Positions 32,901 to 35,427 of a DNA stretch of 64,000 nt are shown here, piece after piece; position 1 is the stretch's first letter, and each line of letters opens with the position of its first letter. The DNA is from Winogradskyella ursingii. Its GTDB lineage: Bacteria > Bacteroidota > Bacteroidia > Flavobacteriales > Flavobacteriaceae. A program made the position numbers and the translations under genes. Location: positions 558,001-622,000 of the forward strand of contig NZ_JABFDH010000002.1 of assembly GCF_013403975.1 (NCBI RefSeq), given 5' to 3'. The notes under the pieces were generated by a model, which had not been told where the DNA came from, searched no databases, and saw only the letters and a list, made by a program, of their open reading frames with translations.

Positions 32901-32931
32901 TTGAAAAGTCAAAAATTAATCTAAATATTTG
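32901..32931 (+). promoter_or_regulatory. Putative promoter of the leader upstream of the TPR-RtcB genes
   Basis: TTG at 32901-32903 (preceded by TT), a 20-base spacer, and AATATTTG at 32924-32931, seven of eight matches to the Bacteroidota -7 element. It would start transcription near 32938, about 40 bases before the leader ORF and about 170 bases before the hairpin-plus-T-run at 33081-33111. Confidence 0.4.
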
Positions 32932-32975
32932 CACTGATTCCAATCAAAAAGGAAGTCGAATTAAATCTAAAAATT

Positions 32976-33050
32976 ATGAGTTTATTTATAACATATCAAA
33001 ACGATCCAAAAGGAATTCTACCTTTTGTGATGCTTCGTGATTGTCATTAG
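32976..33050 (+). CDS. Putative 24-aa leader peptide upstream of the TPR-RtcB genes
   Basis: A short ORF with an ATG start after an A/T-rich stretch typical of flavobacterial leaders. It runs from MSLFITYQND, through PKGILPFVM, to LRDCH and TAG. The 24 residues use 17 of the 20 amino acids (only Ala, Glu and Trp are absent) and 21 different codons, including three leucine codons and both ATA and ATT for isoleucine. Its last seven codons lie in a segment (33031-33048) that can pair with 33071-33088, the same bases that form the 5' arm of a terminator. A role in attenuation is my inference; the ORF is too short to judge by itself. Confidence 0.4.
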   Translation: MSLFITYQNDPKGILPFVMLRDCH

Positions 33051-33111
33051 ATAAACTTTTCAAATTTATAAATGAAAGATCCGAAGCAAGTAAAACTGTT
33101 TCGGGTTTTTT
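33031..33111 (+). promoter_or_regulatory. Putative attenuator: mutually exclusive antiterminator and terminator
   Basis: The terminator form is CCGAAGCA (33081-33088) with TGTTTCGG (33097-33104): 8 bp with one G-U pair, an 8-base loop, then G and TTTTTT. The alternative form pairs TGCTTCG (33031-33037) with CGAAGCA (33082-33088), extended by GAT with ATC, a T-G wobble, and CATT with AATG (33045-33048 with 33071-33074), with one bulge and a small internal loop. Both forms use 33081-33088, so they exclude each other. The upstream arm lies inside the end of the 24-aa leader ORF, the classic layout for ribosome-mediated attenuation. The base pairing is seen in the sequence; the regulatory role is inferred. 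Confidence 0.45.
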
Positions 33112-33170
33112 GTTTTCAGTCGTTAGCAAGTCTGCTAAACATTTCCAAAACAGTTAAAATAAAAGATCAA

Positions 33171-33200
33171 CGTCATGCTGAACTCGATTCAGCATCTCAT
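33171..33200. repeat. Dispersed palindromic repeat, ATGCTGAA/TTCAGCAT type
   Basis: CGTCATGCTGAA, CTCGA, TTCAGCATCTCAT: a palindrome framed by GTCAT and ATCTC like the ATTCCTGC type. A related, reverse-oriented copy with a longer loop is at 45191. It lies between the attenuator-like element and the TPR gene. Confidence 0.75.
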
Positions 33201-33230
33201 TGAATCAAAAAATTAAAAGTAATTTAAAAA

Positions 33231-33251
33231 GACCCTGAAACTAGTTCGGGG
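33231..33251. repeat. Short palindromic repeat, CCCTGAA/TTCGGGG type
   Basis: CCCTGAA, ACTAG, TTCGGGG: a 7-bp imperfect palindrome 10 bases before the TPR gene start. The type resembles other intergenic palindromes here, and it could fold at the 5' end of the TPR mRNA. Confidence 0.45.
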
Positions 33252-33261
33252 AAAGAAAACA

Positions 33262-33792
33262 ATGGACACGAATTTGTTAAACAATTACGTACTTAAAGCT
33301 ATAGATGCTTATCCATACGATTTAGAGGAAACTGTAGAAAATCTAAACTACGCCTTGTCTTACGAAGCTAATAATGCTTATGCTTTGTATTTAATGGGCC
33401 GTTTGCAAGCCGAGCAATTTGGCGATTTCGTAAAAGCAAAACAATATTTCGCTGAAGCTTTGGCAAACAAGATGGATTTTCAAAAAGTGTATTCAAAATA
33501 CATTTTGGTGCTCATCTGGAACGAGGATTACGAAGAAACCCAAAAGCTAATCGACTTTGCTTTTACTGTAAAAGGATTAGACAAAGGTTTGGTTCACACA
33601 TTGCAAGGACAACTTTTTGAGAATCTTCAAAAGTTTAAAAAGGCTTTAAAAGCACATAAAAAAGCAAAATTGTTTGGGTGTAACAGTGATTTTATCTGCT
33701 ATGTGGATTCAGAAATTTCAAGAATCAAAAACAAGATAAAATCAAAGAAAAAGGCATCCAAACGTAAAAAAAAGAAGAAAAATAAAAAATAA
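33262..33792 (+). CDS. TPR-like protein with polybasic tail, upstream of rtcB
   Basis: 176 residues. Residues about 1-150 are helical and contain TPR-like repeats: ALYLMGRLQAEQFGDFVKAK with the next helix YFAEALANKMDFQKVYSKYI, then VHTLQGQLFENLQKFKKALK with AHKKAKLFG. The last 20 residues are almost all Lys/Arg (a KSKKKASKRKKKKKNKK type tail), suggesting RNA or ribosome contact. No signal peptide. I do not recognise a named family. It lies 225 bases upstream of rtcB on the same strand, downstream of the attenuator-like leader. RtcB also ends in a polybasic tail, so the two may act on the same RNA. Confidence 0.75.
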   Translation: MDTNLLNNYVLKAIDAYPYDLEETVENLNYALSYEANNAYALYLMGRLQAEQFGDFVKAKQYFAEALANKMDFQKVYSKYILVLIWNEDYEETQKLIDFAFTVKGLDKGLVHTLQGQLFENLQKFKKALKAHKKAKLFGCNSDFICYVDSEISRIKNKIKSKKKASKRKKKKKNKK

Positions 33793-33845
33793 ATTTCACT
33801 ACGCAAAAGCATTGCGCAATAGCGTAAAATATTTGTAGTGTAATT

Positions 33846-33875
33846 AAAAAGAAGTCTTTGGAATCAGACTTTTTT
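33846..33875 (+). terminator. Weak terminator-like hairpin between the TPR gene and rtcB
   Basis: AAAAAGAAGTCT pairs with AGACTTTTTT around an 8-base loop, ending in a T-run, 54 bases after the TPR stop. Only about three of the pairs are G-C, so read-through into rtcB is plausible. An AATATTTG element at 33828-33835 just upstream could be a second promoter. Confidence 0.4.
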
Positions 33876-33928
33876 AAGTAGCGCTCTGCCAGACGCTGGA
33901 GCTGGTAGGGCTTAATGAAAAAATAACC

Positions 33929-35427
<1,499 letters not shown>

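Follow-up and report, generated by a model that had tools for sequence, protein, structure and literature searches.

A putative leader-peptide attenuator ahead of RNA-repair genes in Winogradskyella ursingii and other Flavobacteriales

The sensing of cut RNA and the timing of the RNA ligase RtcB are described, in the portions of the literature at hand, for few systems, namely RtcR in enterobacteria and TrcR in Anabaena. In Winogradskyella ursingii, a gene for a TPR-like protein and rtcB are preceded by a short ORF and by RNA that appears able to fold in two exclusive ways, which raises the question of whether these genes are controlled by the translation of a leader peptide and, if so, what such a leader would sense. 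We analyzed this locus in a window of 64,000 nucleotides, the whole stretch of W. ursingii DNA covered by a preliminary description, and in related genomes. The comparisons make it probable that the leader acts as a ribosome-mediated attenuator of transcription, one that would respond when translation elongation fails in general and would then switch on an RNA-repair operon.

Attenuators of the trp and his type comprise a leader ORF and RNA segments 1 to 4, with segments 2 and 3 forming the antiterminator and segments 3 and 4 the terminator. Elements of this kind are predicted 5' of the TPR gene (Table 1). A direct count bears out the ORF of 24 codons, with 21 different codons and 17 of the 20 amino acids (A, E, and W are absent). 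The terminator, placed earlier at 33081-33104 plus six T, lies inside a larger predicted fold of 19 pairs and -19.5 kcal/mol, and the antiterminator that had been proposed to exclude it through common bases is recovered as a fold of 33031-33088 (-16.3 kcal/mol) that overlaps the terminator at 33078-33088, such that an intrinsic terminator and an exclusive antiterminator have a segment in common, as in an attenuator. The fold of the 178-nt leader beats all of 200 shuffles (z = -4.9). The terminator is absent from the output of a simple consensus terminator scan, and an Rfam scan of the leader yielded no match reaching the gathering score; the four sub-threshold matches (E 0.2-0.7) are all far under theirs. 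Both elements of the promoter-like pair named in the preliminary description were found, in what we take to be the Bacteroidota-type promoter consensus (TTG ... AATATTTG), and a similar element precedes the leader in relatives. Of 85 leaders, 82 have a TTTGC in the 130 nt that precede the ATG, a count made with a loose pattern and without a control. By a simple consensus scan, promoter-like sites are not in excess: the one at 32901 is among 9 matches, and shuffles average 14.5.

Table 1. Features of the W. ursingii leader and of the genes that follow it (positions in the window)
Feature	Position	Strand	Details
Promoter-like pair	32901..32931	+	TTG 32901-32903, AATATTTG 32924-32931
Leader ORF	32976..33050	+	24 codons and stop; peptide MSLFITYQNDPKGILPFVMLRDCH
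5' arm of a leader-internal helix rivalling the antiterminator	32978..32998	+	partner strand in the MFE fold, 33038-33058
Hairpin within the ORF, directly 5' of segment 2	33004..33031	+	predicted fold
Segment 2, upstream arm of the antiterminator, in the end of the ORF	33031..33042	+	GCTTCG 33032-33037 plus extension
Intrinsic terminator (predicted)	33070..33115	+	core 33081-33105; T6 33106-33111; segment 4 GTTTCG 33098-33103
Segment 3, common to antiterminator and terminator	33078..33088	+	CGAAGC 33082-33087
TPR-like protein, first gene after the leader	33262..33792	+	176 aa; Pfam TPR_19/TPR_12, E about 1e-4, under curated cut-offs
RtcB RNA ligase	34018..35427	+	469 aa; PF01139, 128.9 bits, cut-off 27

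Taken together, sequence comparisons indicate that the W. ursingii leader is genuine and conserved well outside its own genome. A strict motif (GCTTCG-N22..52-CCGAAG-N5..18-TTCGG-N-TTTT) occurs, in one copy each, in 30 of 299 Flavobacteriaceae genomes (W. ursingii included), and its reversed pattern, the control, in none of the 299. In all 30 genomes an ATG ORF runs across GCTTCG and stops 16-25 nt past the start of this element. The TPR gene is present in 28 of the 30, compared with 32 of the 269 remaining genomes of the family. A search from the TPR side (E <= 1e-15) retrieved 60 of the 299 genomes, 28 of them with the strict motif. Reading 26 of the 32 others revealed 21 intact divergent leaders (18 single leaders of varied core and three tandem ones), two that look decayed (L283, which lacks the T-run, and L289, which lacks a clear segment 3), and three loci where no leader was recognized 5' of TPR (L284, L288, and L291, the last near a contig end); six genomes with weak TPR matches (E 5e-18 to 4e-16) lay outside this reading, part of which was done by eye (L282, L283, L287, L289, L296, and segment 2 of the tandem loci). 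In the tandem loci (L290, L292, and L293), two successive attenuators stand 5' of the operon. Each comprises a terminator and an ORF that is 28-35 codons long (one with a GTG start), and GCTTCG is replaced by cores such as CTCGGGT and AGAACCG. A leader is also present at all three TPR loci taken from other families (L294-L296).

Among near relatives, the TPR gene was detected at E <= 0.001 in 27 of 60 genomes (W. ursingii included), and a leader was found at 20 of 20 TPR copies of relatives (12.5 kb around each). Within the genus there are at least three forms of the leader peptide, MSLFITYQNDPKGILPFVMLRDYR-like, MLKHKVAFQNLSYDLESFTRLRYFL-like, and MFHIKTDKSMVGELGSLAYTLRDIFPDK-like, with the same layout and few shared residues. 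In 395 genomes of the phylum, the strict motif has 15 matches: 5 fall in the family and 7 in a single further family of its order, and 3 come from outside the order, the matched sequence of these 3 being unlike the leader. A motif scan of an 84,980-species collection gave at least 117 stretches; among the 80 loci listed, 46 were kept as leaders, a choice that leans on the answer because they were selected by taxon, ORF, and genes. Genera among the kept leaders listed include Chryseobacterium, Aquimarina, Tenacibaculum, Capnocytophaga, and Algibacter. TPR, RtcB, or PrfH lies 3' of the leader in 44 of the 46, within the available sequence; the exceptions are L182, with only another operon protein in 1,088 nt, and L189, with nothing in 444 nt. 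The 34 dropped loci include chance ORFs (L166 and L198) and a weak release-factor match (L122). Also rejected was a locus of Gelidibacter maritimus (L167; Flavobacteriaceae), whose four motif matches are copies of a GCTTCGGAGCTGGAGG... repeat without a leader ORF.

Two signs of function that the preliminary description had proposed to look for in relatives, a conserved short ORF and compensatory changes in the stems, are both present. The pattern search yielded 98 leaders that collapse to 87 unique ones, and 82 of these have an ATG at -53, -56, or -59, that is, in one frame. With three further leaders whose ORF has another frame (L177 and L191) or another length (L056), an equivalent ORF lies over the antiterminator arm in 85 of the 87, the remaining two being cut by contig ends; shuffled sequence yields such an ORF in 21 of 1700 cases. 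As for the alternative frames, frame 0 occurs in none of the 87 and frame 1 in two, and the start distances point to L177 and L191. No frame is preserved in the spacer 3' of segment 2 (the remainders split 47, 21, and 19), a count on which relatedness among the leaders has a bearing. Codons of 22 close relatives differ from those of the W. ursingii leader by 43 synonymous and 88 non-synonymous changes (W. ursingii's own changed codons included), and the residues of the peptide are not under purifying selection. What selection appears to keep is the frame and the length of the ORF, including the position of the stop, as the residues drift, which supports the view that the leader ORF behaves as a translated one.

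Covariation of the stems was assessed in 107 of 109 rows, leaving out L279 and L282, where the automatic finder had misplaced the segments. The 2:3 pairing extends past a one-base bulge in 63 of the 107 leaders and lacks the extension in 44, with no case of an extension without a bulge or with a longer one; the main types are GAT/ATC (26), GAC/GTC (18), and GGT/ACC (14). Two of the three extension pairs sit at positions that the search pattern leaves free, and 30 of 61 distinct rows pair, compared with a mean of 21.1 and a maximum of 28 in 2000 shuffles. Core bases are set by the search pattern in most rows; in rows found through TPR, the first core pair, usually G-C, is replaced by A-U in L269 and L280 and by U-A in L272 and L287, and segment 4 changes along with it in three of these four. 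L273 and L276 have A-C at this position, and the core 2:3 stem has a mismatch in L273, L276, L270, L271, and L283. The totals of the segment finder (646 and 649 of 654) are inflated because the finder selects the best pairing.

At the level of the group, a segment 1 that pairs with segment 2 may exist as well. Between segment 2 and the 18 nt that precede the start codon, pairing reaches -8.39 kcal/mol in 29 representatives (shuffled, -4.12; sd 0.33) and -7.14 in all 85 leaders (shuffled, -3.43), and this pairing falls under its own 5% shuffle level in 20 of the 29 and 45 of the 85. GAAG stands at the start codon in 23 of the 29 representatives and 57 of the 85 leaders. Lineages that bear it seem to possess a four-segment, trp-like attenuator, with GAAG complementary to the antiterminator arm; it is missing or weak in W. 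ursingii and its close relatives, where the leader-internal helix occurs instead and its 5' arm is a possible counterpart of segment 1. The hairpin 5' of segment 2 averages -7.25 kcal/mol in the 29 representatives, compared with -4.19 in shuffles (z = -8.3 for the mean), and 12 of them reach z of -2 or below singly; in W. ursingii it could possibly serve as a pause hairpin.

The architecture just described and its association with repair genes are well supported by these comparisons, and an attenuation mechanism is strongly suggested. A ribosome that reaches the stop codon of the leader would cover GCTTCG, upon which CGAAGC would pair with GTTTCG and RNA polymerase would halt at the T-run. Were the ribosome to stall early in the leader, GCTTCG would stay free to pair with CGAAGC, which would block the terminator, so that TPR and rtcB would be transcribed. 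If no ribosome is present, the terminator would form and the leader would fold on itself, in many relatives via the GAAG at the start codon. We infer from this layout that the leader is expressed, in which direction it switches, and what it responds to, the candidate signals being damaged or missing tRNAs, damaged ribosomes, and ribosome inhibitors.

The peptides are richer in different residues than chance would have it. In 38 representatives drawn from 114 peptides, with mutual identity below 40%, there are 15.21 different residues per peptide, compared with 14.13 expected (sd 0.24; 0 of 5000; z about 4.5). A set of 29 representatives has 14.97, compared with 13.73 for pooled composition (sd 0.27) and 13.24 for genomic windows (sd 0.30), neither reached in 2000 trials. 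Against stop-free dinucleotide shuffles the values are 14.45 and 13.29 (sd 0.26; 0 of 200), and for the part 5' of segment 2 only, 12.72 and 11.25 (sd 0.24; 0 of 200). All these figures refer to representatives picked by identity, which are not phylogenetically independent, and to nulls without the requirement for a hairpin in the ORF. The excess fits the earlier proposal of a leader that samples almost every tRNA.

As to the genes under the leader, W. ursingii encodes a single RtcB; no PrfH over the cut-off was found in its genome, and a slipin search, run without a positive control, came back empty. Across 51 mapped loci (two mapped twice, 20 chosen by TPR, with gene counts limited to the sequence available per locus), we found TPR in 49, slipin (PF01145) in 30, RtcB (PF01139) in 30, and PrfH in 8 (by TIGR03072; the one member checked was above the cut-off), with RlaP (PF10127) and an RNA 2'-phosphotransferase (PF01885) identified in single representatives. 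Genes for tRNA follow in 27 of the 51 loci, at least five of them in 8 loci and up to 20 consecutively in L120; between 9 and 22 lie 3' of TPR in L120, L056, L057, L059, L060, and L031. In 13 of 20 relatives, TPR is followed at 2.2-5 kb by an RtcB with 86-91% identity. The position ahead of TPR and rtcB thus stands as first described, and the restriction to rtcB as the partner does not: the leader appears to belong to a wider RNA-repair operon of TPR, RtcB, PrfH, slipin, and in some cases tRNA arrays, with TPR as the most constant member. At L100, the leader precedes not repair genes but an acetyltransferase whose best match is AAC(3)-I, at 87.2 bits against a cut-off of 200.

Several other features of these loci deserve mention. 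Some array tRNAs were called with unusual anticodons, for example, Tyr(ata). A conserved protein of about 104 aa (cluster C10; L121, L120, and L057) occurs in 7 mapped loci, and its tested member has no Pfam match; nor does a protein of 612 aa encoded between TPR and RtcB in the L042 operon, for which a TROVE label was dropped for lack of Pfam support. An upstream ABC transporter was considered as an operon partner and rejected, since in none of the 20 relatives read does it adjoin the leader. An intergenic repeat at 33171-33203 (GTCATGCTGAACTCGATTCAGCATCTCA) recurs at seven other places in the W. ursingii genome (E <= 0.0012); the idea that the terminator is a mere flavobacterial repeat, one of which lies just 3' of it, was rejected, as a search of the same genome found no second copy of the whole leader. 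The gap between TPR and rtcB (33793-34017) contains another TATTTG-like promoter and a hairpin with a T-run (AAGTCT...AGACTTTTTT); similar elements follow TPR in L016 and L017, as judged by eye, and possibly are the remnant of an array's control region.

Could the leader instead sense a single amino acid, such as Leu or Arg, in the classical manner? The only widely conserved residue pair, L-R, does lie near the end of most peptides, but in that frame L-R is the translation of the pairing segment GCTTCG itself; the pair is missing from L177 and L191, which have their ORF in another frame, and L290, L292, and L293 have other cores. Residue variety above chance is the opposite of single-residue runs, and the genes controlled are for RNA repair rather than biosynthesis, so that neither an enriched regulated residue nor biosynthetic genes 3' of the leader were found, and we regard an amino-acid-specific attenuator as very unlikely. 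A drug-specific arrest peptide or uORF, on which a single class of antibiotic would hold ribosomes at a single site, would be in line with the AAC(3)-I-like acetyltransferase at L100 and, by the available text on it, with the response of PA5471.1 to ribosome-targeting antibiotics; given that no arrest motif is conserved among the 38 divergent representatives, such drug specificity is unlikely.

Two other readings dispense with the peptide. The strong fold, the hairpins within the ORF, and the lack of purifying selection on the residues would suit a riboswitch or T-box-like RNA in which the ORF is incidental, but the start, open frame, and stop are similarly placed in all 85 uncut leaders despite sequence drift, and Rfam gave no match at the gathering score, which makes this highly improbable. 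Promoter and terminator could also bound a small RNA of about 175 nt that is independent of TPR and rtcB; this we hold to be the most doubtful of the possibilities, considering the antiterminator covariation and the fact that, at nearly all loci read (L100 excepted), the leader precedes repair genes in the same orientation, even though gene order and neighbors vary. An attenuator responsive to general elongation failure remains our preferred reading.

Like trp- and his-type attenuators, the flavobacterial leader combines a leader ORF with a 2:3 antiterminator and a 3:4 terminator; unlike in those, its peptide has no single-residue run and more different residues than chance. RtcR, which controls rtcBA in Salmonella and E. 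coli, is a sigma-54-dependent activator protein, and its control thereby differs from attenuation. In the part of the source available, rtcB is induced by damaged tRNA (PMC10272220). The same partial text places a trn tRNA operon, rtcB, and a slipin gene of Anabaena in the TrcR regulon, which is relieved by translation-targeting antibiotics (PMC10272220); the combination of tRNA array, rtcB, and slipin resembles that found here, but, as far as this text goes, Anabaena uses a protein repressor and scattered loci, whereas the flavobacteria would use a leader peptide and one operon.

The closest parallel is PA5471.1-armZ in P. aeruginosa, where, in the accessible portions of two papers, leader-peptide attenuation is proposed for an RtcB-like gene beside PA5470 prfH: complete translation would allow the 3:4 terminator, and stalling caused by antibiotics or by loss of Cca would prevent it (PMC12057347, PMC13041342). 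The suggestion that the flavobacterial leader is a new kind of control for rtcB is therefore overtaken in part: the control is not new in every respect. By description, the two are functionally analogous, each with a short leader ORF 5' of an RtcB-like gene next to prfH; the flavobacterial one differs in its occurrence in Flavobacteriales, the frequent TPR gene in first place, slipin, some tRNA arrays, and a variable residue-rich peptide. The E. coli topAI uORF is reported to sense several classes of ribosome-targeting antibiotics and, in the sections at hand, governs a toxin-antitoxin transcript (PMC12121999) rather than RNA repair. RtcB-PrfH (RFH) operons are described, in the part seen, as having accreted TPR and nucleotidyltransferase genes to prfH-rtcB, much like the accessory TPR gene here, and that part is silent on regulation (PMC6514570). 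A paper on RtcB2-PrfH contains no word starting with "leader" (PMC9223846), and the available text of a flavobacterial transcriptome paper offers leader-peptide clues for amino-acid operons and does not contain "rtcB". Among the matches listed for the open-access literature, in the text displayed, there is no leader for rtcB or prfH in Flavobacteriales. What is new, beside the P. aeruginosa precedent, is the clade-wide spread, the residue-rich variable peptide, the operons with tRNA arrays, and the tandem copies.

We further suspect, with about even chances of being right, that these leaders represent a class of attenuators with peptides selected for variety, in effect a general trial of ribosome and tRNA pool that is kept across Flavobacteriales despite rapid turnover and that releases RNA-repair enzymes, and in some lineages reserve tRNAs, when any tRNA fails. 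Residue variety is thereby suggested as a design rule that is open to codon-by-codon testing, and the leader could be used in Bacteroidota to report on tRNA-cleaving toxins and on damage to ribosomes. If the attenuator reading holds, RNA damage would be sensed across much of one bacterial order by the ribosome itself in the act of translation, and this sensing would be tied to repair enzymes and, in certain lineages, to spare tRNAs.
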